A DNA stretch of 64,000 nt from Amyelois transitella (lineage: Eukaryota; Arthropoda; Insecta; Lepidoptera; Pyralidae): assembly GCF_032362555.1 (NCBI RefSeq), contig NC_083515.1, forward strand, positions 5,305,001-5,369,000, in the 5' to 3' direction. Positions 8,487-54,803 of this stretch are shown in pieces. Each line of letters opens with the position of its first letter. Within the stretch, counting starts at the first letter, position 1. The notes beneath the pieces were generated by a model. The model had not been told where the DNA came from. It saw only the letters and a list, made by a program, of their open reading frames with translations, and searched no databases. A program made the position numbers and the translations under genes.

Positions 8487-8498
8487 TTTATTTTTATT
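8487..8498 (-). terminator. candidate poly(A) signals
   Basis: Two AATAAA hexamers in a row on the minus strand, about 325 nt below the stop codon of the gene at 8821-16786. They would give a compact 3' untranslated region. The hexamer is common in AT-rich DNA, so this is only suggestive. Confidence 0.35.
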
Positions 8499-8820
8499 CT
8501 TAAATAACGAATTCATTTCCACATACATCACCGTTAGCTATCGTGGAAATATGATTTCCGTTAGTCTTTTCGTGTATGTGACAGGAGCGATTAAAGGGCC
8601 CGGGTCAAAAAACTGGAGGTTCATTTCTCCTGTCACAAGGAAGGCGGAGACACGCGCCGCGACAAAGATGTCTTGCGGCGTGCAGAAAGGCAGGGGTGCG
8701 GGGCGGGGCATGCGGGGGCGCGGGCGGCGGCAGCACGGGCGACAGCGAGCCGGCGCGGGAGGCGCTGTCCGCCGCGGACGGCGGGCGCTACACGTGTGTG
8801 CATGCGCCCGCCGCCACGGG

Positions 8821-11800
8821 TCAGCCGCCCGCCAGCGCGTCCTCCGGCTCCGGAGACCAGCAGTTGTCTGACAGCCAGCACCCCACCACAACGGTAAGAA
8901 AGCCGATCAGGAGAGCCAACACTATGTAAACCTCCGCGTTTCCTATTCAAACACAATACTAATTAGTACATATTCCCAAAAAAATATATATCATATTTAA
9001 AATATAATAAATTATAAATATGTCAATGAGGAGGGATTAATTTTAGGTTTCTCATTTGACATTTGTCTTTCTTTTTATTAGAACTTACCTAATTGTTTTC
9101 GAATGCCAAGAGGCTGCCGACTGCGCCAGAGCGAATTGATGAGCGTGGGATCCCCTCGTGTGCGCCAGTCCCGATAACCTCGCCCTCTGGAATACTGACT
9201 GAATCTGTGTGCAAATATAACGAGAGATACAATGTGATCGTGCCTTCAAAATGAAAGTAACTCTTTTATAGCTGTCATAATAATTCTACTAGGCGTATTA
9301 TTTCATCATAATTCTATCTACAATAATAAAAAAAGTGACACCATTGTAATAAGACAGCAAAATTGCCGAAGGTGCTTTGATCGCAGCTCTGGCGTCAAGC
9401 CAACAACTTTCAATGCCGAAGCTTTCCGCTCGTACAGGACTTTACTGATGACAGCAAAAAAGCGAAATTGAATTGTTACAACTTTCCGTCCTTAGGATTA
9501 AATGCGATTCGTGCACATATGTAGGTACATACCTATCTAATAATTATAATAGTGATGTGTTTCATGCGAATGCAGTTGTAACTACTGTGATAAAAATATC
9601 ATGGAAAAATCTAAAGCAAATCAATAAAGATTTAAATCTTTAATTACAGAATATTTTTTATAATTTATGGTCTTCACAAAATATATTCAGGGACTCTAAT
9701 TTTCTAAATGTTTCATTGAATTTTATAAAACAATTCAATTTCGCAAATAATTATCATATCCTAAGCCTATAATTGATTTTCTTGTCGATTGTGAGGCATA
9801 AATAAAGGATAAAATGTTTATAAAAGAGGGCCAGGATTTTTGTTTATGTCTGTTGTGGGATTGTTTATTGAATAGTTCAAAGTTGCACCAATAACGTACT
9901 TGAAACTACTGGTGGTTAATTAAAACGTGCAATTATTTTCAGTTGATTATAATCTCATGCAGCGGAACTATTCAAATCATTCATCGGCAACATTCGATGG
10001 TTTATAAAGAGTTTTGGCAATGGCTCCTAAATTATAAAAAACCTTCTGTAATTACATCTTCCAAGCAGTAAATTACTTACGTTATCTCGTCGCAGCCATT
10101 TTGTTGCGTATAATAAAATAGGTACATAAGATGATTTTCATGATCAGGTATCTTTTAACTTAACATGAGATATATTTCCCAAAAACGGTTAGGTATACTA
10201 ATTTTAAAACCATGATTAGAGAAAATCATTATAAAACATTTATTTTATATATTAATTCAGTGTGGACATGAAAAATACTTTTTAACTTAATACAGCTGAA
10301 AACTTTGTGAGACATTCTTATCAGTTATTTGAGAGCTTTCCGAAAATAACTTCACAGAAGACGTTAAATTTTTAACCGTGTTCCGGGCAAACCGTCTGCT
10401 GCACTTTGCAACTCGTGTTAAATATTTTAGACACAATGCTTCACTAGAATAGATTCTGTATTCCCAATATGCTAAAAATAAATAATGAAATACTGGCTGG
10501 AAACACGCATTTCTCTTGTAAGTATGTAAATTTTTTGGCCACGTCATGTTTAGAAGAGCCATTTTCGTCGGAAGCATTTTCTATAAAGAACTTCTATTCT
10601 TACTTAGTTTTAAACGTTTTAAATATATCCTTAACACTCTTTGGACATCTTTATTTATAGCAGTGCAAGTATTACAGATATATCTTCAAATTCAGAATCG
10701 CAGCATCTGATCTTAAGTACGCCCTAGAGAGATGATTGCGGCGTTTATCCGGTATTGGGCTTCTGTTATCGGGTTGTTACGGTACGCTGATGCTATATGA
10801 ATTTAACCTTCAAAAATGTTACTCAAAATATTGTTATAAAAGTGACATGAGGTTGTGAAATAATTTTATAACCACATTTTGCTTTGATTACTAGATGATA
10901 TAAATGAAAGCCGCGTAAGATTTTGTTCATTTTACTAGGCAGTAACAAGTAATGCACTATTGGTTTTATTTTAGAGAGGATAATATTTTATTGAGCGTTA
11001 TTTCAAGTAGATTACATTACTAACGCTGCCAGTTTGAAACGTCCTTAAATTCTTCGTTATTTCATTTTATCAGTAAAACAAGACGTTCAGTATAACTACT
11101 TTTACAGATATGAAATTTAAAAAAATATGCATGTATGTGCAGTGCTCTGTGCCTATCTAGTAATGAGAATTCAGTTGCTGTAGCATTCAAAGTGTTTCGC
11201 AGATTACTTCACGGCTGCACTAGTGTTCTGGGAAATTTATGTTCTATTACTAATGTATATGCAAGGAGCTCAGCTTGTGTAAACAGAATCTCTGATTTTA
11301 TTCTAGCACAGATTCCAAATACATGTTCATTCTAAATTTAATTCTTTCCTTATTTCTCTTGAGTCTCTGTAAAAGTACGAGATTAAAATTATTTGGTTAA
11401 TCCTACATGGTTGCGTGACTATTTTTTAATTTTCAGGCAGATGCTTATCTGCCATAATAATTCTTATGAATGTATATGCATAAGTTATGTTTATTTACTT
11501 AAACTATCTTTTTGTAAATGGATTCCTTAATAAATACGTTAAAATAATGCAAATAAATATAAATGACACAATGGATGACGCAAAATAGAATATTTTATGT
11601 AGACATGTATTATTCCTATTTGGATTGAACCTGTCATGTATGCATTGGAAATGGCCCATCTGCCCAACATAAATAGAACGCGGCTCTGTCAGTAGCCGAT
11701 TAGAAGCACATAGCACTGAAATCAATTAAGGTAATTAGATACTTATCTGCATTGATTTTGAGTGGAACTCTTCACAATCTTATTAAAAAACATTTTTCTA

Positions 11801-14800
11801 GCCATGTACTACACTACTCCATAATGCGCCCTTTCATTTCTAAATATTTTTTTTACAATCTCTGGAAAGCTTAGACAACAATGTTTTTGCACATTAATTT
11901 AATTACATTAAATGCTTTTTTTATACTAGCGATTAATAATGATTACTGACATAGATAAGTGCCTAAGAACACTTGCGACAAACCTTAATTTTTTTTATTC
12001 ATAATACTAAAAAACATTTACGATTTTGTTAAAATTTTGAAATTATAGATACCATAAATGTTAGATCAGACCCTATTTAAACTGAAAAAATGAATTTTCA
12101 CCGAAAGTCATCAAACCTTTCCTGAGATCGCCGCAACAAACATGGACCAGTCATATTTTCTTAATTTAAGCACAATGATGTTGTTACAATGAAGTTCCCG
12201 CCATCTTATTGTTACATTTTTAATAATAAGAAATATTTATTTTAATAACCTTGAGTTTCTCAAATAAAAAGGTTTCATTACACTCTTATAAATTTGCGCT
12301 TGAGTCAGTGCAAGCGGCTGCTGTCTCGCGAACTTTGCGGATGAGTTTTAGAGTGACATGTCCGGGGCTAATGTAATTGCTGCTACCAACTTTACTCGTT
12401 TCTTACTACTGAGCGTTGTTAGGGAACAAATGACTGGAGCTTATACTCGACAACATTTTATGACTAATTTAATAACAGTTCACCTGCAACTGCAATTTAC
12501 GTGCGAACACATTGTGATTTTAATTTTATATTGTGTCACTGGGAATATATGGCTCTGCAGTGCCACATTTAATCAACGACCATAGTACTAAGCTATGACT
12601 ACTTTGCATAAAAGAGCGTTGGCGTTCATAAAAATATACTTTATAAACAAACATTTTAATACTAGACGGCATTCGTCAAATAAATATAATTCGTTCAGTT
12701 TTTTTCTTCGAAAGGATTCACTCATTAAACATGAACTGATCAATATTGTTTAAAAATTTTAATGAATCGATGTTCAGTATTATAAATTAGATAAGTAAAA
12801 TCTTTCTAATCTATGTTTTTCCTATTTTTCTTCTGAAGAAAAAGTACATTTGAACATAACCTTACATCTTTTTCAGTGATTCATGAAGATTTTCATTAAT
12901 AAAATATCGTTTATTTACGTAAAGTGACGCGTTTGAGTTTAGAGTTAGAGTTTCGGTTTAGAGTTGTTTAAATTATATTATCTTATTCCTATCCAATATG
13001 TTTTGTTAAATTATATTATCTTATTCTTAACTTTGACAAATTATTTATTTCACGACATAATTTCAACAAACGCCTACGCTCTCAATACTAATGTGAAAGT
13101 TTTGAAGCGTGGAGGTTTGTAGCGGTGCGGTCATACCTGCGGACGCCGCCGACGCCGGCGGGCGGCGCGGTGGAGTGCGGCACGCCCGGCGGGACTTGCG
13201 CGCCTCCCTGCACGCCGCCCTGCACACTGCCTTGCGGCGCGCACACACAACACCCTGCGCATACACTGCTCTTACTAGGTTGTTTTATTTAAATACGGTA
13301 AGGACAAAAAAAGAGATACCAATGCGCATGTAAAAATAATTTATATTTAAAATTGGTCGCCTATAACTGTTTTTACTTACTACTCAGCTCTGATAGTTTT
13401 CCTTTGTAATAAACAAAGGCCTTTCAAACTAAATATTTCAGAGACGGACCTCTAAATCGAGAAATAGTGTTTACCTATTCTACGATACTTACATTTACAC
13501 GATCTGGGTCAGTGGAGAAAAAAAAATACCCTCATTTTACTTCTATGGCAAATATAATAAAGCATATAAAAAAAATTCATGACTTTGTTGCAATTTTTTT
13601 ACCCTCTGAGTAAAACCGCGAACAGACGAATTCATGGCGAAACTATAAGGGTATCTTGTTTATTACGGCTTACTTATCAAAAGCTTCTAGTCTACCGAGT
13701 AATCTAAAAAAAAATATTTTTAAACTTTTTACACGATCGTCAAAAATGAGCTGAGTGGTTTCCGGCACTTTAGAAAAGAACCATTCTATATCTTTTTTAT
13801 TGATGTCGCAAAAGGCGACTAAGGGATAGTCTTACAAACTTGGGATTCTGCTTGTACCTTTGCGTTATATTGTTGAATAAAGCAGAATATAATGGTTGTT
13901 TAGTAGACATTACATCACATTGAATACATTAAGCACCGCAGATATGTTAATCAAGTAAATCTATGCATTCCATTCAAAATAGGCTATACATTATGTAGCA
14001 CCTATGTTATTAGCCTCCACATAACTGTATTACTGATACTTAATTTGATATATAATGTTTTACGTACTAAGCGAGAGTAAATTATGTATCCCTTAAGGGG
14101 AAGACAGAGCCTACACTCTTAAAAAGACTGAAAGGACTTTTAGCTAGATGGGTTAAATAATGTAATGACCGGTTGCTAGCCTATCTCAAACTATCCTTTC
14201 TGTTGATATACAATCTGATGCGAAGCAGCTCGCACATACCTTGTTTTAACTTGAAAACCGTATAATCGAACTTTACGCTTTGATTGTTCTTTTTTGGTTC
14301 GAGTAGCTTAGCTGTAGAATGAACTTTCTGCGTCTACATGCCCAGACAAGTTGCCGGGAACATTCGGAAGTAGAATAAATGGTCTTCATCGTCACCTGCC
14401 TTTAGGTAAGATGGAAGATAAATGCCTAATCCAATATTGAATAAAAAAAAATCTTCGCTTCCAGCCTAGCATTGAAACTTGCAATAAATGAACTATTCCT
14501 TTAATCGTCTTTATCAAATATAACGGGGTAAAAAAGAGATGAAATGGTCGTATTCTGGTACTGGATTAGCATCAATGAATTCGCATAAGTTTCTAAATGT
14601 TGAGCGATATAAAGATGTTTTTCACTCTTAAAATATTCCTCTGTCTTCGTATTGCGGAAAAAATAAAGCACTTCATTTGTAGTTTTGTGCCGTTAAATGA
14701 AAATATACAGGCTATTTTTGTGTGAAACATGAGCGTTCTCGGAACAAAAGCAATGAAAGAGTTCGGCGAGCGCCATCAATGATGTTTGTCTGGCCGGCTT

Positions 14801-16786
14801 GTCCCTTTTGCTTGATCGTTTAAGTGATATGTGGGGGTATTCGATTACCTACCGTAAAATTATCATTACTAAAGGGGTGTTCATTTTTTGATTTGCTTTC
14901 ATTGGTTTTTGCACTGCTTTAAATAAAACAATGGGAACACCGTATTTTTATTTTTCGTCATTTTTAAAAGTAATGATTTTTAAAGAGTTATTTCTAGAGT
15001 AGCCCCGAATGCAACAAATAATTTTTGCGGAAAGTTAGCAAAGTCCTTTCTTAATGCACCTCTAGACTACATAAGGTACTTACATTGCAAATACGAAATA
15101 GCGGTTTCAGCTGTCCGTTAATATGTCAATCAGTCTGTCTTATCTTTTACAGATAAAGATGAATAGCAATCGAAAATTTCATTTGAAAATAAATTCGTAT
15201 AAATTAACTTCAATGGCGAATCGAAAATATTTAATACTGTTCTGTGATTTAGAACTTTGATGGCCAAACAAAAAAAAATATTCTTGGCACTTTGTGTTCT
15301 GCTAATTGTTATCTTGAACAGTGAAATTGAATTGAACAACCAGCATAAACGAGCATAAGGCGAAAAGACAGCGGCTTTCAAAGTGCGCCTCGCTGATAGA
15401 AAACGCTTAGAGTGACGCCCATTGTTTCATTGTGAAGTACCTATATTTCACTGAATAGGGAACATTTATCTTGTCGACAAAAATAAACAGTTTATTTGTG
15501 AATCTTTTTGTATCTTTTTTTTATTAATGGCAGATTTAATCTTGTTTTGAATAAATGAAATACTTTTCAAAATAAATAACTATTTATTTTGAAATGTTGT
15601 TGATAACAAATAATATCTGTAATAAAAATTCACGTTTACCAGCTAGAACGCATCTGATATTGACAAATAAACTATAAATCTGTTGACAATTTAACGTTTT
15701 ACTTGACTTATGATCAGGTGAATATTGATTTGCTAATTAATCTTGATTTTGTCGATTGTTTTTTGAAAAATTACAGTTAAAGTTAGTAGTTTCGCCGGTA
15801 TCAAGCTTCAAGTTTCGTATCTAGCAACGGCAACAACGAGTATCAACGAGCTGAGAACAGATCATAGCTCAATAAATAGCAAAACGATTCAGCAACGAGA
15901 GCAAACGGTCAGCTACGAGCTGTAGTAACTAACTACGACCAGGTCGTAGCTAGCCGGTAGCAACCAGCTACGAAGGAGTCGTAGCTAGCCGATAGCAACC
16001 AGCTACGAAGGAGTCGTAGCTAGCCGATAGCAACCAGCTACGAAGGAGTCGTAGCTAGCTGATAGCAACCAGCTACGAAGGAGTCGTAGCTAGCCGATAG
16101 CAACCAGCTACGAAGGAGTCGTAGCTAGCCGATAGCAACCAGCTACGAAGGAGTCGTAGCTAGCCGATAGCAACCAGCTACGAAGGAGTCGTAGCTAGCC
16201 GATAGCAACCAGCTACGAAGGAGTCGTAGCTAGCCGATAGCAACCAGCTACGAAGGAGTCGTAGCTAGCCGATAGCAACCAGCTACGAAGGAGTCGTAGC
16301 TAGCCGGTAGCAACCAGCTACGAAGGGGTCGTAGCTCAACTTTAGCAACAAGCTACGAACGGCTCGTAGCTAGCCGGTAGCAACCAACTACGAAGGGGTC
16401 GTAGCTCAACTGTAGCAACAAGCTACGAACGGGTCGTAGTTCATCAGTAGCAAATTGTGAACGGGACGTAGCTTAACTGTAGCCGGAAGCAAAGTGTACG
16501 GAGCAATGAGTCTATTACGCTTAACTAGCAAAGGTTTGTAGTTTATAAGTCTAAATTGTTCTTATATATTTTTTAAATATAATATTAGAAGTTTGTTATT
16601 TCATTTTTTATCTTCTGCTCTTCACAATACTATTATAGAATAAGAGACACCTTCAAGAATATAACTTAGAAGCAACTTTTATACACTATCATAAATACGC
16701 TAAAGACACTAAGAAGGTAGTAATAGAATACCGGCGAGTGCTGCGACAGCTGCCAGCGAAAGGAGGGCGGAGCGGCTGCGTGCCAT
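8821..16786 (-). CDS. candidate four-exon gene for a small signal-bearing membrane protein, family unknown
   Basis: Exons, in order of transcription: 16786-16732, 13254-13137, 9204-9089 and 8921-8821, giving 129 residues. Exon 1 begins ATG GCA with an in-frame stop upstream and encodes MARSRSALLSLAAVAALA, a good signal or signal-anchor helix (residues 7-23). Exon 2 (20-57) is Gly/Pro/Gln-rich. Exon 3 (59-96) is Arg-rich, with W71, W84 and an RGD at 74-76. Exon 4 gives a hydrophobic helix (about 96-113), then an acidic tail with Cys117 and a stop. Support: phases 1, 2 and 1 match at all three joins, frames stay open, exon GC is far above the flanks, and donors such as TTAG/GTAAGT are good; the exon 1 donor (GCCG/GTATTC) is weak. 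Introns hold SINE-A pieces and the minisatellite. The basic stretch before the second helix conflicts with a simple type I topology, so two membrane passes are possible. I recognise no family. Confidence 0.55.
13747..13862 (+). repeat. SINE-A, 5' half
   Basis: GAGTGGTTTCCGGCAC followed by the GTCGCAAAAGGCGACTAAGG block. It is cut off after the TTGGGATTCT word. It lies in the intron or upstream flank between the exons at 13137 and 16732. Confidence 0.65.
14086..14190 (-). repeat. SINE-A, partial
   Basis: Minus-strand match to the SINE-A 3' half (TATCCCTTAAGGGGAAGACA on plus), with a short deletion before GGTTGCTAGCC. It is in the same intron as the piece at 13747 but in opposite orientation. 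Confidence 0.6.
15820..16490. repeat. 35-bp minisatellite with a hairpin in every unit
   Basis: About 15 units with a strict 35-nt period run from 15943 to 16467 (unit starts at 15943, 15978, 16013 and so on to 16433). Each core unit contains AGCTACGA, a 5-nt spacer AGGAG, then TCGTAGCT: an 8-bp perfect stem. It also carries GCTAGC. The central units are almost identical; units diverge at both edges and decay into loose CAACGAG words before 15940. Every frame meets TAG stops, so it is not coding. It sits inside the first coding intron of the minus-strand gene at 8821-16786. Confidence 0.95.
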
Positions 16787-16869
16787 GTCAGCAGGGCATG
16801 CCGCGCGACGCGGGCCGCGTCATCGCCGCGACATGCCGGCCACCGCCGTCCACACGCCGCTACCGGGAC
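16732..16869 (-). other. 5' leader plus first coding exon
   Basis: This is the first coding exon of the gene above, with its leader. A strong pyrimidine tract and acceptor (TTTCTCTTCTTTAG) precede 16869. The leader contains a tiny upstream frame, ATG TCG CGG CGA TGA, in the same frame as the main ATG at 16786, which could damp translation. The donor after 16732 is GCCG/GTATTC, which is weak. Confidence 0.45.
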
Positions 16870-24639: not shown

Positions 24640-24990
24640 CACATAGGTTGTTAAAGTTTGATATTAAAGGCAGCCGTATACATTTTAAGATGGGAAGTGT
24701 CGGTGGGTCGCGTCGGGCTCGAGCGGAGCGCGCAGGCGGCGGGCGTCGGCGCCGCTGGGCGCCACCTGTCGCTGTGGAGCGGCGTGACTGCGGCACGGGC
24801 CGTGCGGCTGCTGCGGGGGCTCACTAGCGACTGAGCCCGGGCACGTGGAGCGCCGGGCGCCGCGCCGGCCGCCGCCCAGGTGCACTGCACCCCCGCCAGC
24901 CCCGGGCGCCCCGCACAGCCTCCGTCACCGCCGCCAACGCACGCTGCCCCCGCTTGCACCGCACGGTCGCTTGCACTCCGTCTGCACGTC
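24640..24990 (-). promoter_or_regulatory. GC-rich island, possible promoter or first exon
   Basis: About 300 bp of very GC- and CpG-rich sequence in an AT-rich setting. It lies upstream of the minus-strand gene whose first coding exon is at 16732-16869, and that exon is preceded by an acceptor, so an upstream noncoding exon must exist. A donor-like GCTA/GTGAGC is on the minus strand near 24825. Minus-strand frames (ending at 24685 and 24651) are open with high third-position GC but have no recognisable domain. It could instead be an exon of another gene. Confidence 0.35.
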
Positions 24991-27194
24991 TCGTATAATT
25001 AATAATGCTAATTAAAACATCCGGAATAAAGACGTTTAATCTCACACTCGGGACATCTTTGTTCAACACGATTATGGCGTCAACATTTTTATTGCTTTAC
25101 TTAGTTAACACGTTCTTCTAGACATTTTTGCAAATAAGCATTGTAGTTAGTGCATATTTGTCGGGGTGCTCGACATTTATTAAAGAAGATAAAATTTTTA
25201 ACTCTTAAATGAATTTCGGTGAGTTTCTTTCACTTACTACATAATACTTTAAAAGTCAGATAAATTTACTTATATTTTCGTTATAATTCACATATACATA
25301 TATTTTCTTTATAAATAATAAGCGTTTACTTCAAACTTCAAAAATAATACTAAAACGTACAACAAAATATTTCAATACTTCAAAAATTTGGTAAATGGTT
25401 ATAAATTAAATTAATATTTCACAGCTCCAATTTGTGAGTTCCGAGACGTTTTGAGGACGGCAATCGGGACTGCTCGTCTAAACCAGACAATTAGTCTAGG
25501 AAGTTGGGAACATTAGAGATAAGTTCTGGTTGCAGTCGAGGAATACTAACAGGGTTCTATTAAGGTACATATAGTTATGATGAACTCAAGGTTTGTAGAG
25601 CTATGAAATTCGTACGTGTATAGCGATAATTGTTATCTACAAAGGTTTGCTAATGCTGGCAGCGCAGTGGTAAGGTCTCAATCAAATATAGTGCAATGCG
25701 AAATAAAATAAAAAACATAGTCAATTTGTTGAAATATCTCGTTACGATTTATATTAGAAACTACACGACATAGTATCGTAAATCTCTCCTTGTGACTAAC
25801 TGAAAATAGCTCTAAACCGAGTGTTCAAACAAAGAATATGCTAATAAACTTGGGAATCTTGTTTAAGTGAGGATTCACTATCTAAATATTAAGTTCACCA
25901 TTTCAGCTAAACATGGCTTTTCAGTTTTTGAGTTTTGTCTACCCGGTAAAAATAGTATTCATATTCAGCCTTATGATAAATAACAAGATTGAAGAAGGCA
26001 ATTTTACGAGTGCCTATCAACAAACGACAATAGCGACGAAAAAATTCCTAGCCGGAGATATGGTGCAAATACTTGCTGTTGTTTGGTTCAAAGACGTAGC
26101 TTCGTATTCTCGAACTGAATAAAATTGTTCAAAGACTGTAATGCACGCCCGCCCGAGCGTATGCAAGCCCGGAGTGCCCCCACTTACAACACCGTTCACA
26201 GAAGTGTGGGTTTCACCATATTAATTTAACAATAACCGCATAACATACTCTGTTCTGTCTTGTCAAATAATGTAGTTTGTTTCGCCGCTTCTTCTACACT
26301 AACGTTTTGGACGCGATATTAACTTTCGTGACAAGTGATGCTTGATACTCTTAAGTTATAGCTTGTAAAAATCTTATTTTAAACAAAATTTATTTATTTC
26401 ATTTGATGTCCTCTAGTTATTAACAATGTGTATTTTGCGTAATATGGTCACCATATCAATGGAAATATCAAATCAAAATTATAAAATAAAGTAGTAGGTA
26501 GGTACTATACTGCAGAAAATTTTTAAGACTTACATCAGTATGACAACACTTTGTTTCTCACAATGCAATAAAAATTAATTAAAAAGACAATAAAAACGCC
26601 ATATTGTAATTGAAATCGAAAGGAATGATGCATCCTATCGTATCGCATCTTATTGTTACCGCTATCGTCGGATTTCATGTTAACTGCAATCGAAGCGATG
26701 GTGCAATTCACACTTTAAAAAATCAATTCAAACTTTCGGTTCGACTTGTGTAGCGAAGTGTGGATTGGTATGGATTGTTCCGGAAAGTTTTGCAGTAAAA
26801 AAAATAAAAAAAACCCTATCGACCTCAGTGGCTCTGAAATGAACTGTTTCGTGTTTTCTTTCTCTTATTTACTCAACAAGAATTAATACTATAAGCGGCT
26901 TAGAAAAAAAACCATTTGATCAAAAAATTTAATTAAAATTTGGCAAACTTTTTCCATTTTTTAATAAAGGTTTATACCATTCAATCTTACATAAAAGATA
27001 TATTTTTTAATTTAAAGGACTTTTGTTTGTAATGAACAAACCGGTAAAGACTAAATCTTCAGGAGTTTTTGTTCTAATCAAGAGTAATCCCAAGTTATTG
27101 CTCACGGGAGCAAAGCCACCAAAACATGTCTAGTTTAAAAAACTTTGAATCATAGGTTTCACCATTTTGTGTTAAGTTTATTATTTCAAAATTA
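24991..27194. other. no gene recognised
   Basis: AT-rich DNA without recognisable repeats. A short GC-richer patch at 26140-26215 has no defensible exon. Confidence 0.4.
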
Positions 27195-37445: not shown

Positions 37446-38504
37446 TCAAATTTTAAATGCATAAAATAAGTTATCCAAATTTCTAAAAAAATGATTAGGT
37501 ATCTGTATTTTGATCAAATTAAGGACGTCCTGGTAAAGGGTCAGGTCAAAAGTACCCGAAACCGCCGAGCTTGCATGAAGAGAGTTATGAATGTGGATGA
37601 AGCGAGGGAAGTATGCAGAGATCGTGGCAAGTGGAAAGAGGTAGTCTCTGCCTACCCCTCCGTGAAAGAGGCGTGATTTAATGTATGTATGTATGATTAT
37701 TATCTGTTGGAGCAAGGTCCGGAGAGTACGGTGGATATCTTAGACATTCTAATCGAAGCTCCTCTAATTTGGTAGCAGTCTGTTGTGCAGTGTTTGTTTT
37801 AGCGCTGTCGTGAAACAGCAGTAGTGTGAAGCGATTAACCAGCCTCGGTTGTTTAGAAGTTAGCTTTCCCATCATAGTTTGCAATTGCTGACAAAAGACG
37901 TCTGCCGTAATCGTCTGGCCACATTTGAGAAAACTGTAATGAACGACACCGGCACTAGTCCACCAAGCGCTTACAAGTAACTTTTTTGGGTAAATTTTCG
38001 CTTGGGCAGGACTTGGCTGGTTGGCCAGGGTTCAGCCATTGCGTTGAGCATTTCGGATTATCGTATAGAATCCAGATTTCATTATTATGCCGGTTAAATA
38101 ATGTAAAGCAGCAGTCGATTCGTGTTTGCCGGTATGTTTCACTCAATTCGTGAAGTACCAACTTTTCGAGTTTCTTAATCTTCCCAATTTGCTTCAAGTG
38201 GATTAAAATAGCTTTTATTATTACTAACACCAAAATCTGAAGCTAACTCGGACATGGTTTGCGATGGATCCGCTTCCACAATAGCCTTCAATTATTCATT
38301 ATCAACTGAGGTCTCCGGCCGTCAACGGGACTTGTTCTGCAGGTAGAAATTTCCAGAACGAAAACGTTGGAACCAAAAACGTACTGTGTTTTCTATTGCA
38401 ACACGACCGCCATACCCATCATTAACCCTTCGAGCCGTTTCCGCAGCACTGGTGACACGGTAAAACTCATACTCATAAATAACGCAATATTTAAATATAT
38501 CCAT
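37446..38504 (-). mobile_element. mariner transposase pseudogene, interrupted by LINE-B
   Basis: Minus-strand pieces in order: TSAAETARRVNDGYGG and VRFWFQRFRSGNF (N-terminal DNA-binding part, 38504-38322); HELSETYRQTRIDCC, then IWILYDN and LNPGQP (38233-37955); FLKCGQTITADVF, HDSAKTNTAQQ and PPYSPDLAPTD (down to about 37700); HFFRNLDN at about 37490-37465 beyond the LINE insertion. The second and third catalytic Asp (HDS and SPD) are visible. The first, normally in a TGDE motif just before the WILYDN block, is deleted. Several frameshifts exist. No terminal inverted repeats were found. It is dead. Confidence 0.88.
37498..37692 (+). repeat. LINE-B 3' copy inserted in mariner
   Basis: A 195-bp copy of the LINE-B end, flanked by ATGATTA on both sides (37491-37497 and 37693-37699). 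It separates mariner codons for APTDNNH from HFFRNLDN. The match to the 27205 copy is nearly exact over 180 nt, so both are young relative to the decayed mariner. Confidence 0.85.
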
Positions 38505-42603: not shown

Positions 42604-43688
42604 AATAGGGATGTGGACTGTACTCAAATAAGTATAAAATTTTACCACGAAAAGGTAGTTTCTATAGTAAAAATAATAAAAAACACAATATTTTCCTCAA
42701 TAAATAAGGGATTATTTTTTTATTTAATAAAATGTAATTAAATATTTCACCCTCAAGTCACGTGACAATGAACACCAATCAAAATGCGTGATGTCACGCG
42801 TTGCAATACAAGAATTTTCGCTGTCAAATACTATGGTGTTTGTTGATATTTGGATCATATTATTACCGTGATTACCGTCCGATTATCTTAGCCACGGAAA
42901 TACTTTGTGTAGAATGAGTCTGTTCTTTTTCTCTTTCACATTCCGCTATTGATTCCAATCTTTGCCTTTTAACTGCTAATAGTCGAGTTGTTATGTTTTC
43001 GGTTCGTCTTTTTTATCGGGTTGACATGCAAACTTTCTTGGCACACAACCTGCTCTCAGTCTGATCTGGGATACTGTGCCCATCAAATGATATTCTGGAT
43101 AATTCTCCATATCATTGGCAACTATAATGAAACTAAGAAACATTGTTTACTTTATTTCTAACCTAAAAATTCGAGTTTTCGTCTTTGAAAACTTGAAGAG
43201 TTAAATTATTTTAATACAAGTAAATGTAACAAATATTATCAAACTTACATCAAAATGATCCTCACAGAAATACATTTTACTTTGTGTAGATACAAGTGCC
43301 GGATCCCGGCGGGCTAATTGAAGCCAATTTTTCAGCATCGTTTTTGTACGTGGAACGTGAATAAACAGTTTTTCAGGTGTTTTAATAGTTGTAATTTTAC
43401 ACTGCGGCACCGCACAATATTTATAAAATTTTGAATTCATATTATTATCACACAACTATGAAATAACTATTCATTGCATACGACTTCGACAATATTTTAT
43501 AACGCGTGACATCACAGCGGCCGTTTGACAGGTATCCGCGTTTTAGCGCGAAATTTTAAATGGAATTTTAAATAAATTATTTTAAAGGTATTACTTCAAA
43601 TAAAAGAATAATAATAAATAGTTTGGGTTATATTTGGTACTTATGCATGGTTTTAAACACTTTCCCAAAAATAGTCCACATCCCTATT
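42604..43688 (-). mobile_element. THAP-carrying inverted-repeat element (P-element-like?)
   Basis: The ends are inverted copies of AATAGGGATGTGGACT(G/A)T: 17 of 18 bases match between 42604 and 43688. Subterminal inverted words, TGATGTCACGCGTT, lie near 42790 and 43505. Flanks TGGCG(CTG)/TGGCG(GGC) could be an imperfect 8-bp target duplication. The 1085-bp interior carries a THAP DNA-binding domain on the minus strand but no transposase catalytic part. P-element transposases begin with a THAP domain, so an internally deleted P-like element is the simplest reading; other THAP-bearing transposons are possible. Confidence 0.7.
42991..43440 (-). pseudogene. THAP domain, two exons, one-base frameshift
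   Basis: Exon 1 (43440-43249) reads MNSKFYKYCAVPQCK, then LFIHVPR, KNWLQLARRD and MYFCEDHFD. It supplies the C2CH zinc ligands (C-x4-C ... C-x2-H), with the proline and tryptophan expected of the fold. A GTAAGT donor follows directly. Exon 2 (43121-42991) continues DMENYPEYHLMG and CVPRKFACQP (the AVPTxF-like end), then a stop. With the obvious donor and acceptor, one base is missing just after TTGCCA, so the reading frame breaks; a weaker GTTTGA donor would rescue it. An earlier ATG at 43455 adds five residues. It lies inside the inverted-repeat element. Confidence 0.75.
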
Positions 43689-44535: not shown

Positions 44536-45826
44536 GTCACGTTCACAAGGCAATTCCATTTCAGTGGGGTGTGATCATCAAGCTTTAAGAATGACAAGAA
44601 CGTCTACGGTTTGTCGACGATAAAGTGGTCATGGCAGAGTTGCAATTGTTTATTAAAAAACATTTTTATACCAAAAGGTGATCGTTGCTATTCGATGCAC
44701 TTCATTGGAAAATATTTTTATGGAGATGATTTATTACGTGACGATGATTAATATTTTGTTTCTTGTATTTTGATTGACACGAAAAAGTAATAATAATAAG
44801 TATTGAACACTGGCTGTTTTTTGTTTCCATTTCTTTTTTATCTATTATCCCATCTCTTAAGACTATTGACTTATGTTTTAAAACAAGCTGATATGAAATT
44901 TCGAAAAAAAAAGCAATGATGTAATGTGCCCCTTATAATACAAGGGTATAGGTACCATAAGACAGAAATCACATATAATTTTTTTTCGTTGTGTTGCAAC
45001 AACTTTTTTTTTACGCATATTTTATGGGTAATAGAGCACACAAAGGAGCATAACATAATAATATATTAATTTTGTGATTGTAAGTCACAGAGAACTTAGA
45101 AAAAAAAATGTTTTTTTTTTTATTTTTTTATAATTTTTTATTTTAAAAAATATATGTGATATACTTTGTAATGTAACCTAACACCTCGCGTTAGTTTCAC
45201 TTCTCTATCCTAATTACCTTCAGAGATAAATCACATTCAATAATAGTCAAGCATACGGATATTTTGCTCTCTATCTCAAGGTCAAAGCGGAAGTCGGTCG
45301 CGAAAAGTACATAAATCGTGTTTGAACATCAAGTCGATATTAAAACAAAAGTTTCGATATCGATTCCCATTTGGGGGCCGACTCGTCATACGTATCCGGC
45401 TAAACCCTTTATTTTTCTTTATCAGTTTGATCTTCTTTGAGTTTTTAATTTTTTTTGTCTATGGATGGTTCATGGCTGTATATGTTATGGAGCTTTGCCT
45501 TTCTTCCATGGATTAAAAAAAGCGTAGTAAAAAAGAGATCCGGTTCGTAATTTGTACGTAGTTTGCGTTTTTGAACGAAATATACTAAGACCAAATTAAA
45601 ATGTAATGCAACAAAGTTGTGACATCTTTTTCTTACACGTGTAATTTATAGCTGCATTAGTTGAGGGCAAATTATCGATATCACAACATTTCTCATAACC
45701 TGGGTGCAGCTGTCAAAGAAATATTCTTCAATCATTGACTTTTCGTGTGGCTATGGCGTAAATTGGTTTTGAGTAGTAATTATTTACGAAATTTAAGAGT
45801 TAATAATTCTTGTGATAATTATTATT
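44536..45826. other. AT-rich 5' flank of GET4
   Basis: Long A- and T-runs near 45090-45160. No TATA box or other promoter element could be assigned with confidence. Confidence 0.35.
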
Positions 45827-47938
45827 ATGGCTGGGCGCGGCGAACGAGGTGTAGTGAGAGTTTTAGATAAGTTAGAAGCTTCTGTAAATTCAGGTCAATA
45901 CTACGAAGCACATCAAATGTACAGAACTCTTTACTTCAGGTATGTAGTAGAATTGCATATTTTTATTTGGCTGGAGTTCACAAATACCCTAATATATATC
46001 TGTTATCAAATAAACCCTAACATATATTTCAGGTATTTAAGTCAGAAAAAGTATGCGGATTTATTAAATTTATTGTATAAAGGTTCTACTCTCCTATTAC
46101 AACGCGATCAGCAAGGCAGTGGGGCTGATTTAGCAATACTACTTATTGACGTGCTAACCAAGTCTGAAACAAAACCATGTGAAGAATGGATAGACAAAAT
46201 AGCCAAACTATTTGGAATAATGGACTCTAGCATACCAGAAAGAGAAAGTTATCTGACAAACGCAGTCAAATGGTCCATGGACAACAACAAGAAAGGCCAT
46301 CCATTACTTCACAAGGTAAGTTTCTACTGTAAATGGGGTTTCTAGCAATCATCGAATCAAAGTATTTGTTGATTATTATTTTTACTGAAACATAATTAAT
46401 TAGAGATTGGTCACAAATGAAGTGCACAGAGATGATAAATAAGTCCAAAATGTTTCCCGAGGATTGCTTTCTTAAGGTTATCTCCCTATTTCTGTCAGAC
46501 ATGATTATTGTAAGTTCATAAAATTCATATGTATACAATACCTAGGTTAGTTGACTCAAAAAAGTGCTGTATTTGGTTGAAACATTCTTGAAGGCTATAA
46601 TTGCACATCTTGTATAATGCATGGCAAGTGAATACTGCACTACATCAGGTGCTGCAAAATTTACTCTCTCTGCACACATGTAACATTAAAAAATGTATCA
46701 AGATTACGAGAAATTTTAGAAAATTTATGCAGTTATGAAAAAAATTGTTGGTCTTTTTCAGAAAATAGCTGAGGTGTACTGGCGTGAATCAGACTTCACA
46801 TCTGCACATAGGCATTTCTTACACTCATGTGATGGCTCAACATATGCCAATATGCTCATTGAATTACACACAACTAAAGGACTTAAGTCTGAGATTGACC
46901 TATTTATAGCACAAGCTGTGTTTCAATTTCTTTGTCTGAGAAATATACGGATGGCAACAGAAACTTTTAATAGATACACTGGCTCTCACCCAACTATAAA
47001 AAATGAAAAAGGCCCTCCTTATTTATTTCCATTATTAAATTTTCTGTGGTTTCTGTTAAGAGCTATTGAACAGTAAGTAAAATCAATATAAATCATAATC
47101 ATGCTTATAAAACTAAGGGTGCCATGACAGAATAAAGAGATAAATATCTTGGCTCTGACGCATTGGCACAACTGAAAGTGCTACTGTAAAAATGCCTATG
47201 GCTCCATCCCATAAAATTTCCATTCCCACAAATTTCCTAGAATCTTCTTTTAGTGCAAACCTTAGGTTACATAAGGAACTTAAGCACAATACAACTCAAA
47301 GGTATAACATTCTTCCGGGTATCAGACCCTGTATGACGGCCTCTGTGGCGCAGCGGTAGTACACTTGTCTGTGGCACCAGAGGTCCCGGGTTCGAATCCC
47401 GGCCAGGGTATGATGAGAAAAGAACTTTTTCTGATTGGCCTGTGTCTTGGATGTTTATCTATATAAGTATTTATTATAAAATATAGTATCGTTGAGTTAG
47501 TATCTCGTAACACAAGTCTCGAACTTCCTTCGAGGCTAACTCAATCAGTGTAATTTGTCCCGTATATTATATTATGTATGGAACTTGCATACCAATGGAA
47601 TAAACTATATAAGCAATTTAAATTTTAAAAATATGACAAAATTCATATTAATATGTGAATATGACAGGCATTTTAATAGTGATCCCTTTTTCAGGAGACA
47701 TGCAAGTCAGTTCAAAATATTAAGGAATTGGTATGCAATTAGTATAAAGAGGGATCCAAATTATTCAGTTTACCTGGACAACATTGGTCGTATTTGGTTT
47801 GGCATAGAAGTGCAGCCAGATACCAGGAACTCCTCATCAGTTTTTGGTGGGCTGCTCAGATCTATTATTGGTGATGCTGACAGTTCCGATGAAGATGGAG
47901 ACTTTATGGGTCAAAGTGCAGCACCAGACTTAGATTAA
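45827..47938 (+). CDS. GET4: GET4, Golgi-to-ER traffic protein 4 homologue
   Basis: Exons 45827-45939, 46033-46315, 46762-47072 and 47695-47938 give 316 residues, against about 327 in the human protein. In animals GET4 is a cytosolic alpha-helical protein that bridges UBL4A and BAG6 to hand tail-anchored membrane proteins to the TRC40 ATPase. Matching family blocks: residues about 30-40 (QMYRTLYFRYLSQKKY), the PERESYLTNAVKWS block, FLHSCDGSTYANMLIE, DLFIAQAVFQFLCLRN, GPPYLFPLLNFLWFLL, and near the C-terminus RDPNYSVYLDNIGRIWFG and an acidic end. The start ATGGCTGGGCGCGG follows a non-ATG extension. All donors and acceptors are GT-AG and phases agree. Intron 1 is only 93 nt and stays open in frame. 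Intron 3 contains a SINE-C. AATAAA at 48068 is a likely poly(A) signal. Confidence 0.95.
47338..47570 (+). repeat. SINE-C, best-preserved copy
   Basis: Inside GET4 intron 3, same strand. The tRNA-like head is GGCCTCTGTGGCGCAGCGGT (A box), and GGTTCGAATCCCGG is the B box. The body has GATGAGAAAAGAACTTTTTC and the tail TTGTCCCGTATATTATATT. Polymerase III boxes look intact. Confidence 0.85.
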
Positions 47939-49241: not shown

Positions 49242-50828
49242 TCATAAATTTTCTACAACAAGAGATGTAATTTCTCGTGTCCATTTAGATATTTTTAATT
49301 CATTCTTGGTGAGAGATAGCTTTATGTTCCTTTTTTTTAAATCCAATGCTTGTTTGATAATAAATCTATTGAATTCATGCACATTTGGATGATTTAAATA
49401 TTCTTCTATGTCCATCCATTTACAATCCTTTATTTCAATATCAGATTTAGTGATTACTTCTGAGGTAGCTTTGAGTATGACCACCATATATATATCAGAG
49501 TTTCCAAACATCATATTGTGAGTATGTCTGAGAGTAACCAGCGACTCAAATTCTGCATCAACTCCAGTCTCTTCTTTTACTTCTCGTATGGCAGCATCTT
49601 TTATATCTTCACCTACAAACAGTAAAACAAGTGTATAAGAGTATGAATTGAAATCAAAGTGATAAAATGTGAACCATAATTACTTTAAAATTTTATTAGC
49701 AGTATCAGATACCTCTTTCCACATACCCTCCAGGAAGTTTCCAATGGGGATATTCCAAGTAATGGTTTTCCATGACAACCAGCAACTGTCTTTTATCATT
49801 GAAGACAATACCGCCAACACCCAAATTAGTGTGACTAGGGGGTGGCAAATTTGCTTTGCTGTTGGTGGGCAGCCACTTGTACATCATAACAAAGCTGTCT
49901 CTTGAATGATGAAAATCAAAGCCTGCCTGGAAATAGAATAGTGATATCTTCATTATCAAACCTCATTATTGAATGAGGTTTGATAATGAAGATATCACTA
50001 TTCTCTATGAAGAGAGCTTAAATCTAAAGTATTGACTTTAGATTTAAACTCTCTTCTTCATTTTGAAATTTATCCTTGAGATAGGGAGAGGACATGACAA
50101 ATGCTTTGTCAAAAATCATAAAAAGCCTTTAATAATAAAACTATCCTGTTTAGGCAGGCAGGATCCTAGGCCTAATAGCTAAGATATAAGTACAGAACAG
50201 AAGAAATTAAATGAAATATTAATTAAGAAAATATATTTTACTGGAACAGTAGTTTTTTATAGTCTGTCATATTAATTTATCCAGGTGATTATATTTTTTG
50301 GCAACAGTTACTATCTAGTCTGTAATTATATGATTAACTATGCAGTTACATACTCTGGCAAGTATTGGCACCCATTCTGCATTTCTGATATTTACTTTGA
50401 ACCATATGCACCTCTTCTCCTCTTCTTCCCATTTTTTTAGGGACTCTGAAAGTTCAAAGACCTGTTAAGTTGATATAGAATTACTGTAGTTTATGTGATT
50501 TCATGTATGTATAAGTTTCCAGGTTGTAAACCCTACTCCGTATGTCTGGCTAGACAGACCTGCAAGACAGGCTTAACATTTATATTGCTTTTTTGTAGCC
50601 ACTTGACTTGAACTTTCGTCAAGACATCTCCGATTTAATCAACGTTTATATTCGCCTTCCGTAGAATATGCTTGAATAATTATGTATCAACTCAATAAAA
50701 ATTGTTCATGTAGTCAGCTCACCTGTTAGTTTGCCTAAAAAACTATTTTCTTCACAAGATTCTTTTTCAGAATCTACCGTAATTCCATTATATCTATCTT
50801 CAGTCCCCACAAATAATAGCGAATTCAT
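49242..50828 (-). CDS. NUDT6-like Nudix hydrolase, copy 1
   Basis: Exons 50828-50723, 50445-50354, 49926-49713 and 49612-49242 give 260 residues. Nudix enzymes hydrolyse nucleoside diphosphates linked to another group; the true substrate of NUDT6-type proteins is not well fixed. The N-terminal NUDT6-type domain is visible (DRYNGITVDS, then SLKKWEEEEKRCIWFKV, then GFDFHHSRDSFVMMYKWLP). The Nudix box is complete: G133-x5-E139-x7-R147-E148-V-x-E151-E152-x-G154, including the metal-binding glutamates. There is no obvious targeting peptide, so cytosolic or nuclear location is likely. Intron phases 1, 0 and 1 are identical to those of copy 2 on the opposite strand. Intron 2 holds two strong hairpins right next to its acceptor. 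The family call is firm; a one-to-one match to vertebrate NUDT6 is inference. Confidence 0.9.
49935..50004. repeat. perfect hairpin: 33-bp arms, 4-nt loop
   Basis: Arms begin AGAATAGTGATATCTTCATT and are perfectly complementary over 33 bp around the loop ATTG. On the minus strand it ends five bases before the CCAG acceptor of Nudix copy 1 exon 3, so it covers the branch-point region. Confidence 0.97.
50009..50056. repeat. second hairpin: 22-bp arms, same ATTG loop
   Basis: Arms GAAGAGAG(C/T)TTAAATCTAA... pair over 22 bp with one mismatch around loop ATTG. It starts four bases after the first hairpin ends. Confidence 0.95.
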
Positions 50829-51920: not shown

Positions 51921-54803
51921 ATGTATTTCAAAATGTTAACTAATTGCTTTTGTAGATTTAATTACCTTTATATAAGTAAAAGGATTATTCATATGAGGTT
52001 TGTGAATTAACATTTGTTTATATATTACATATCGAGACAGTACTTCATTATAAAATATTTTCTCTACTCCAATTATCTTATTGGTAATATGTTTCAGTTA
52101 TACAGCCTGCAATACTTCTTCTAACCAAACTTTATCTCATATCTTCATTGGTCGTACAGATAGATTCAACGGTATAATAGTAGATTCAACAGTAGAAAAA
52201 ATGGATGATCAGAGTGAATTTGCTCAAAAACTTCATGGTAAGAGTCTACCTGCATAAGATATTACCCATGTTGTATGTAGATATTATAACATACTAGGCA
52301 TAATTATTGTAAAGCATATTGTTTTATATCAAGCTTTTAGACATACATTATCCACATTCCTTTTTTGTCTATATATTGATTGTTATCTTTATTTCATTTA
52401 TTTGGTCTTCCATGCCATGTGGTTTCCGCCACCAATATAAAAAAGAATAGGACCACTCCAACTCATTCCCATGGATGACATAAAATGCGACTCAGGGATA
52501 GGCTTACAAACTTAGGATTCTTCTTTTAGGCAATGGGTTAGCAACCTGTCACTATTTGGATCTCAATTCTATCATTAAACCAAACAGCTGAATGTGACCT
52601 ATCAAGAGCATTGGCTCTGTCTACCCCACAAGGGATACAGACATGTTGTATGTATGTATGGTCTTCCATTGTATGCTACATTGATATGTGTTAAACAGGT
52701 TATATGTACATATAAATTTGTGGTTGAGTGTGTGAGAGGAGTGCTGTGTGGTTTCCGGCACCAATAAAAAAAAAAAGAATAGGACCACTTCATCTCGTTC
52801 CCATGGATGTCGTAAAAGGCGACTAAGGGATAGGCTTATAAACTTGGGATTCTTCTTTTAGGCGATGGGTTAGCAACCTGTCACTATTGGGATCTCAATT
52901 CTATCATTAAGCCAAACAGCTGAATGTGACCTATCAGTCTTTTCAAGAGCATTGGCTCTGTCTACCCCACAAGGGATACAGACATGTTGTATGTATGTAT
53001 GGTCTTCCATTGTATGCTACATTGATATGTGTTTAACAGGTTATACATATACATATAAATTTAATTGCTAAATGTGCAAACCATTCAGGGTAATGCCACT
53101 TGCTCAAATTCATAGTTAAAAACATTAAATTTAGTTGGTAGGTACACATAGTTATATAAAGTACAAAAATTTTGAATAAAAATTCTTTGGTGTGCATTGT
53201 AGAGTCTCTGGCTAAATGGGCTGAACAAAAAAGAAGATGTATCTGGTTTAAAGTGAACATAAAGAACTCCACACAAGTTCCAATTCTTGCTCAAGTTGGT
53301 ATTTTTTTTATAAATCAGAATATAAATCAAAGTTATAAATATGTGAAAATAGGTTACATTTACTGATCTGCATGGCATGCATAACATCATTCGTATTTAT
53401 CGCACAATAAAGTATTACTGTTTTGCTTTTTTCTATGATGTGATACAGTAAGGCAATAGTTTATCGCGCGATAAAAATGGCGACGTGCGACAAATATTAA
53501 GTAAGTTCTTCTGTATATTTTTGGAGAAAATTTTGTAGTCAAATTTTGTACACTCTTGATTAAATCATCAATCATAATAATATATATATATATACATATA
53601 TACGGGACAAATTACACCGATCGAGTTAGCCTGGAAGTAAGTTGGAGACTTGTGTAACGAGATACTAACTCAACAATACTATATTTTATAATAAATACTT
53701 ATGTAGATAAACATCCAAGACCCAGGCCAATCAGAAAAAGTTATTTTCTAACCATGCACTGACCGGGATTCGAATCCGGGACCTCCAATGTCACAATGTC
53801 TTAACCAACTTAAAGAAATAAAATTATTTACTGCTTATTATTTATTTTAATAAAGGCGCAAATTAACATCCATAGAAAGGTTTTAATTTCCACCATGCCA
53901 GAGATGACTATGTGATGATGTTCAAATGGCTGCCACTGGAATCTAAGCCCAACTTGCCTCCTGCCAGTCATACAAATCTAGGAGTTGGTGCCATTGTGCT
54001 TAATAGCATGAAGCAGCTATTGGTGGTCTCTGAAAAACATTATGATTATCCTCACTGGAAACTCCCGGGTGGTTATGTTGAAAGAGGTAAGAATGTCTTA
54101 AAAAATTTTGCAGCCTAACAATTTGAAGATCAATAATAATGAAAGGAAAAGTGACAACAATTGTAATTACAAATTATGATATTGTAAATCTGGGTATAAT
54201 AAGTTAATTATTTTGTTTTTCTAAGCTTCAATAAAATTCCAAAACTGTTTCTAAAATTACTTCAGCTTAAATTACCTTTCTTAGTCAGCAGGATTCACAT
54301 TTCGCGTGACGAATTATCGCTGTTTCACTTTTTATTATGACGTGAAACAGGAAAGGGAAAAAGCGCGTGCCTTGCTATTGCTACAGGGGCTAGTTAGCAT
54401 TCATACTATTTTATATATTTCAGGTGAAGATATCATAGATGCAGCTGTAAGAGAGGTAAAAGAAGAGACAGGAGTTGATGCTGCTTTTCAATCTCTAGTT
54501 ACCTTCAGACACATACACAACATGATGTTTGGCAACTCCGACATTTATATATTACTTATGATGAATGCTTTATCTGATAAAATAATAATGTCTGAAACAG
54601 AAGTAACTGACTGTAAATGGATGAGTATAGATGAATATACAAATCATCCGAATGTTTCTGAATTTAATAGACTTGTTCTAAAGAAAGCGCTCCAGTACAA
54701 AAACAGTAAATTCAAAATGGATTTCCAAAAGAAGAATTTTAAATGGCCTTCATTTGTGAGAGAAATAAATTTTTTAAATGTGGAATTTCAATCTGATAAG
54801 TAA
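51921..54803 (+). CDS. NUDT6-like Nudix hydrolase, copy 2, with N-terminal extension
   Basis: Exons 51921-51997, 52098-52237, 53203-53294, 53876-54086 and 54424-54803 give 299 residues. Domain layout equals copy 1: GRTDRFNGIIVDS (44-56), SLAKWAEQKRRCIWFKV (74-90), GFNFHHARDDYVMMFKWLP, and Nudix box G169-x5-E175-x7-R183-E184-V-x-E187-E188-x-G190. The extra N-terminus MYFKMLTNCFCRFNYLYISK is basic, aromatic and free of acidic residues, like a mitochondrial presequence. The first exon is the least certain part: its donor is AG/GTTTGT, and the exon-4 acceptor CATAG is weak. The 92-nt exon and the phases match copy 1 exactly, so the pair arose by duplication with inversion. Introns carry two SINE-A copies and one SINE-C. 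AATAAA at 54957 is a likely poly(A) signal. Confidence 0.88.
52412..52659 (+). repeat. SINE-A copy with target duplication
   Basis: GCCATGTGGTTTCCGCCACC to the ATGTATGTAT tail. The 10-bp word GGTCTTCCAT precedes (from about 52404) and follows (52660-52669), a likely target site duplication. It is in intron 2 of Nudix copy 2. Confidence 0.85.
52740..53000 (+). repeat. SINE-A copy made by tandem duplication
   Basis: Same orientation as the previous copy and followed by the same unique flank (GGTCTTCCATTGTATGCTAC). It is therefore a segmental duplicate of about 330-340 bp, not a new insertion. It keeps the GTCTTTTCAA word that the first copy has lost and has a longer A-run. Confidence 0.85.
53600..53795 (-). 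repeat. SINE-C copy
   Basis: Minus-strand copy in intron 3 of Nudix copy 2. Tail TACGGGACAAATTACACCGA (plus); B box region GGGATTCGAATCCGGGACCT; the outermost head is missing. Confidence 0.75.

Follow-up and report, generated by a model that had tools for sequence, protein, structure and literature searches.

A candidate four-exon gene for a small signal-bearing, membrane-anchored protein in Amyelois transitella

A stretch of 64,000 nucleotides from the lepidopteran Amyelois transitella (contig NC_083515.1 of RefSeq assembly GCF_032362555.1, positions 5,305,001 to 5,369,000; here called the window) very probably carries a moth or butterfly gene that is ordinary, present as a single copy and uncharacterised, and that codes for a small protein with a signal for secretion and a single membrane anchor. 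We are highly confident that the minus strand holds a protein gene of some form, and we think it reasonably probable that this gene is real in the four-exon form described here and encodes a small type I single-pass protein. The evidence that goes beyond chance is strong, and it is carried by the hydrophobic cores of exons 1 and 4. An initial annotation, made from the sequence alone, had already proposed that a gene here encodes a protein of no recognised family, signal-like at its N-terminus and with a membrane helix towards its C-terminus. That proposal holds overall, but the argument used for it, the protein length and the helix coordinates do not, and the first join turns out to be the least secure.

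Anatomy of the gene

The coding sequence is made of four minus-strand blocks (16732-16786, 13137-13254, 9089-9204 and 8821-8942), each occurring once in the window, with AG and GT correctly placed at the intron edges, from which we infer the splicing. Rejoined with phases 1, 2 and 1, the blocks form a single open frame of 136 codons and a stop. This bears out the four islands, the phases and the absence of stops reported initially, while the length of 129 residues has to be corrected to 136. The blocks are indeed islands rich in guanine and cytosine (GC) within DNA rich in adenine and thymine (AT): their GC fractions are 0.74 (16732-16868), 0.79, 0.55 and 0.61, whereas the 100 bp next to them on the intron sides have 0.19-0.39. 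For the start-codon exon as a whole the value is 0.74, with 0.32 and 0.28 in its flanks. In the 100 bp past the stop, GC reaches 0.82, and further downstream comes a pair of AATAAA signals with 5' ends at 8498 and 8492.

The acceptor with which the ATG exon starts is strong (16870/16869, score 3.78; all splice scores use generic weights, not weights trained on this genome), and there should therefore be at least one non-coding exon upstream of position 16869. The GC-rich island at 24.65-25.0 kb is a candidate for this 5' exon, with both its strand and its link to the gene putative. A scan for more well-spliced exons adds nothing beyond a pair of overlapping candidates at 24.77-24.83 kb and longer, closed variants of exon 1. 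Taken together, the GC steps, the acceptor ahead of the ATG exon and the paired AATAAA signals have the anatomy of a gene (Table 1).

About 83 nt of the 5' untranslated region (UTR) lie in the ATG exon (16787-16869, minus strand). This leader contains two short upstream open reading frames (ORFs), one of 4 and one of 11 codons, with a third upstream ATG inside the second of them, which suggests possible translational control. Intron 1 contains a 35-bp minisatellite at 15943-16439 (14.2 copies, 93% matches). When two of its units are compared with the animal's own genome, with very common words skipped, there are seven matches, all at the intron 1 locus.

Table 1. Features of the proposed gene (window coordinates)
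Feature	Position	Strand	Description
Start-codon exon	16732..16869	-	acceptor 16870/16869; ATG 16786; 18 codons + 1 nt of coding sequence
Coding exon 2	13137..13254	-	end of signal region and Gly/Pro/Gln/Val stretch
Coding exon 3	9089..9204	-	Arg-rich stretch, RGD at residues 74-76
Coding exon 4	8821..8942	-	membrane helix ~101-121, acidic tail of ~15 residues, stop TGA
Probable 3' UTR	8487..8820	-	GC-rich past the stop; two AATAAA at its end
Possible 5' non-coding first exon or promoter island	24650..25000	- (candidate)	GC-rich; donor 24766/24765, score 2.3

Tests against chance

The grounds first given for the gene, that phases agree and stops are absent, are weak. Stop codons are scarce in GC-rich DNA, and when the exons are shuffled 20,000 times with dinucleotides preserved, the frame remains open in 94% of cases for exon 2 and in 46% for exon 3. 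The hydrophobic cores behave differently. With the donor and phase fixed, the core of exon 1 is matched by 0.02% of 20,000 shuffles in the right phase and by 0.065% in any phase. With the acceptor fixed, the helix of exon 4 is matched by 0.005% of the same number in frame and by 0.01% in any frame.

A second approach is to look for chains of four exons, each with GC of at least 0.5, in which the first exon is signal-like and the last has a membrane helix. These crude criteria were applied to both strands of nine regions totalling 264 kb (the window in two parts, a 20-kb flank and six 30-kb stretches), where they pick out 14 first exons that are signal-like and 4 last exons with a helix. Chains appear in only one of the 18 region-strands, at the locus described here, and in none of the other 17; the 11 variants at this locus all have the same first and last exon. 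The splice thresholds were set at the weakest sites of the candidate itself, and the search therefore shows rarity rather than an unbiased probability. Codon-usage training was dropped because only 12 ORFs of at least 170 amino acids are present in the examined stretches and the rest of the window, which gives no clean training set; six of these, all GC-rich, come from the two strands of a single locus.

The GC-rich blocks could also be exons of a plus-strand gene or pieces of a non-coding transcript, in which case the minus-strand protein would be a chance reading. They are open in several frames, and a good plus-strand donor (8893/8894, ACG|GTAAGA, score 4.86) lies opposite exon 4, probably by chance. 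However, the plus strand at 1-27 kb has no chain joining a signal to a helix, the hydrophobic cores lie far outside the shuffles, and it is the minus-strand splice sites that coincide with the GC steps. We consider such an origin of the blocks improbable.

The predicted protein

Hydropathy windows at residues 4-29 mark a signal-like hydrophobic core, and together with the rarity of this core among the shuffles (0.02%) they support the signal-like N-terminus. Joining exon 1 to exon 2 creates a plausible signal-peptidase site, V-C-A|P-Q, which fits the -3/-1 rule for cleavage. An N-terminal core followed by such a site is what a type I architecture calls for, as far as the first join holds, and the single internal helix with its tail of about 15 residues also agrees with it. 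The presence of this helix, matched by so few shuffles (0.005%), stands; its position moves from residues 96-113, as initially annotated, to 101-121, the span of the best 19-residue windows (hydropathy up to 2.56). Between the two hydrophobic segments, residues 25-100 are first rich in glycine and proline and then basic, with 11 R/K against 3 D/E.

The Arg-Gly-Asp (RGD) motif noticed earlier is confirmed at residues 74-76 of the 136-residue product. Since it arises in 4.8-6.1% of residue shuffles, it is no evidence for integrin binding; the motif may be a chance occurrence, and integrin binding through it would be a guess. The protein has no N-glycosylation sequon, and its cysteines are at positions 20, 21, 23, 118 and 124. 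Once the signal is cleaved, the ectodomain would thus have no cysteine left, which makes a disulfide-rich ligand domain unlikely. A glycosylphosphatidylinositol anchor was considered and rejected because of the polar tail past the helix. A prohormone was considered as well: the R-X-X-R sites of the protein (66 and 69) are no more than minimal, and nothing further supports this reading.

A model of the protein at work can be proposed from these features. The first 24 or so residues would be a signal peptide, cleaved at V-C-A|P-Q, leaving about 76 residues outside the cytoplasm, glycine/proline-rich at first and then strongly basic. One helix (~101-121) would cross the membrane and leave the short acidic tail in the cytoplasm, and palmitoylation is conceivable at Cys118, which would be close to the inner face of the membrane. 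The flexible basic ectodomain might bind an acidic partner or matrix. Like Apnoia with Crumbs in flies, the helix and tail might keep a larger membrane protein in position. By this analogy the product would most likely serve as an accessory protein, either on the cell surface or in the secretory pathway; topology, location and function alike are what we infer from the sequence.

Relation to known small membrane proteins

Apnoia (Drosophila CG15887) is described as a protein of 137 amino acids with an N-terminal signal peptide, which keeps Crumbs at the apical membrane and has two predicted membrane helices (50-72 and 79-101), with both ends outside (PMC6333334). Compared on the basis of this description only, it resembles the moth protein in size (137 versus 136 amino acids), in its signal peptide (signal-like in the moth protein) and in its insect origin, but it has two adjacent helices where one C-terminal helix is predicted here. 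For this reason the moth protein is not filed as a member of the Apnoia family.

Short coding sequences of Drosophila are reported to have a median length of 80 amino acids and generally to include a membrane helix (PMC10036370); Hemotin is reported as a membrane peptide of this short-coding-sequence kind (PMC4807881). Purriato and Hemotin are like the moth protein in being small and in having one alpha-helical membrane segment. The moth protein differs from their class in exceeding 100 codons, in its signal-like N-terminus and in the basic Gly/Pro/Arg-rich stretch before its helix. With 136 residues it is also too long for the small-ORF (smORF) class, defined by fewer than 100 codons.

Nothing in the predicted protein points to a new kind of system, and it probably belongs to the many small insect membrane proteins that are still uncharacterised. 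There is a slim chance that it belongs to a single-copy family restricted to Lepidoptera, with no relative outside the order, in which case the basic RG-rich ectodomain would be an undescribed receptor-like or matrix-binding module. The protein would matter only if comparative data gave strong conservation or an order-specific origin. What the locus does illustrate is how GC steps and hydrophobic cores allow a gene that is spread over 8 kb and encodes a small membrane protein to be retrieved from raw sequence.

Search for relatives

In the animal's own genome (327 Mb, 33 contigs) the protein has three matches, which are its own exons 2-4; exon 1 is absent from them because it is too short to be detected alone. 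No second copy is found at the sensitivity of this search. Elsewhere in this genome, 23 of 104 homeodomain matches cluster at 3.73-3.83 Mb of contig C9, an arrangement resembling the Shx expansion of ditrysian Lepidoptera, the group to which the animal is taken to belong. As first claimed, the protein cannot be placed in any family, and searches of Pfam, NCBIfam, the PDB, phages, viruses and prokaryotes return no convincing relative. No Pfam or NCBIfam family reaches its curated cut-off. Pfam PF11239 (DUF3040) aligns with residues 75-123 (E 0.0098, 16.6 bits against a cut-off of 24.7); this alignment surrounds the helix and is most probably fortuitous. The sole listed NCBIfam match, NF040557 (13.8 against 65 bits), and the one PDB match (E 0.5) were also rejected as chance. 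A tblastn comparison with phages gives no match, and neither the 13 pattern matches in viral contigs nor the 181 in prokaryote genome contigs are confirmed at E 1e-3. The collections searched hold viruses, phages, prokaryotes and solved or curated families rather than insect genomes; these negatives therefore weigh little, and novelty is not judged from them. In the literature, none of five peptide fragments of the protein is found in paper text, a search on lepidopteran RGD membrane proteins finds nothing, and one on orphan genes finds nothing that looks relevant.

The first join and the number of membrane passes

The three introns are not equally well defined. Intron 2 has the donor CAG|GTATGA (4.55, in the 99th percentile of GTs on the strand) and an acceptor scoring 3.49 (98th percentile), and intron 3 the donor TAG|GTAAGT (6.60, 99.9th percentile) and an acceptor scoring -0.22 (83rd percentile). 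The donor of intron 1, GTATTC, scores -0.55 and its acceptor (13254) -2.85. Five local introns served as reference: three in a GET4 gene and one in each of two NUDIX hydrolase genes, all placed by eye in genes identified by Pfam. Their donors score 1.55 to 8.10 and their acceptors -0.28 to 3.52, where one NUDIX donor was taken to match the site of its paralogue (1.55) in preference to another site at 4.29, and one GET4 acceptor lies beside a site of almost the same score (-0.17).

Several points weigh against the gene and protein as we read them. Both sites of intron 1 score below those of all five local introns, a small sample, and the 20 nt upstream of the acceptor proposed for exon 2 contain four AGs. 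The shuffle tests were devised once the candidate was already known. Signal-like first exons occur 14 times per 528 kb of strand, which gives a chance of about 0.2 of finding one within 8 kb upstream, before any phase requirement; the chain search alone is therefore no proof that exon 1 belongs to the gene. The residues flanking the helix are basic before it and acidic after it, the reverse of what an N-out/C-in orientation would lead one to expect. Finally, the accessory role is no more than an analogy with Apnoia, a weak one that concerns a possible mode of action.

The join between exons 1 and 2 is thus doubtful, and it is the least secure part of the model. Exons 2-4 could be the real 3' part of a gene to which exon 1 is not joined as proposed, either because an extra exon lies between, because exon 2 starts elsewhere or because the 5' exons are further upstream, for example at ~24.65-25.0 kb. 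Intron 1 is weak at both ends, in a gene whose other sites include good donors at introns 2 and 3, a good acceptor at one of these two introns and another at the ATG exon. There is also an alternative acceptor at 13230, in the same phase (score -2.37), which would shorten the protein by 8 residues, to 128. Against this, the frame of exon 2 has no upstream ATG of its own and therefore needs an upstream coding exon, and in the chain search exon 1 is the sole GC-rich, signal-like first exon on the minus strand at 1-27 kb. With a donor of at least 1, a threshold below which exon 1 itself falls, and with the right phase, the region at 13.4-40 kb offers only three AT-rich options at two ATGs. The join as proposed also yields the plausible signal-peptidase site, and it places a phase-1 intron near the end of the signal peptide, where such introns are over-represented according to one study (PMC1626468). 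A mis-joined exon 1 is on balance unlikely, though it deserves to be kept in mind.

The choice between one and two membrane passes, left ambiguous in the initial annotation, is a real one, given the basic segment before the helix and the acidic tail. If the first helix were retained as an anchor, the basic segment would be a loop of a two-pass protein. By the positive-inside rule for membrane proteins, the basic flank and the acidic tail disfavour a type I orientation; the rule is often ignored by long translocated segments. Yet a basic start, a hydrophobic core and then V-C-A|P-Q give the N-terminus the form of a signal that can be cleaved, and with the N-terminus inside, the basic loop would still be outside, so that a second pass leaves the charge problem unsolved. 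It is simpler to assume a signal peptide that is cut off and one pass, and we give a two-pass protein little credence.

Other features of the window

The GET4 gene (Golgi to ER, that is endoplasmic reticulum, traffic protein 4) lies at 45797-47938 on the plus strand and has at least four exons (Pfam PF04190). At Rfam gathering scores the window has only one RNA match, a transfer RNA at 47339-47410. A THAP domain fragment is found at 43201-43455 on the minus strand (PF05485, E 1.3e-8), and an ORF at 37678-38031, also on the minus strand, resembles, by eye only, a piece of a mariner-type transposase. The two NUDIX hydrolase genes, at 49242-49962 (minus strand) and 53876-54803 (plus strand), seemingly have an intron position in common when compared by eye, and the pair is apparently a local inverted duplication.

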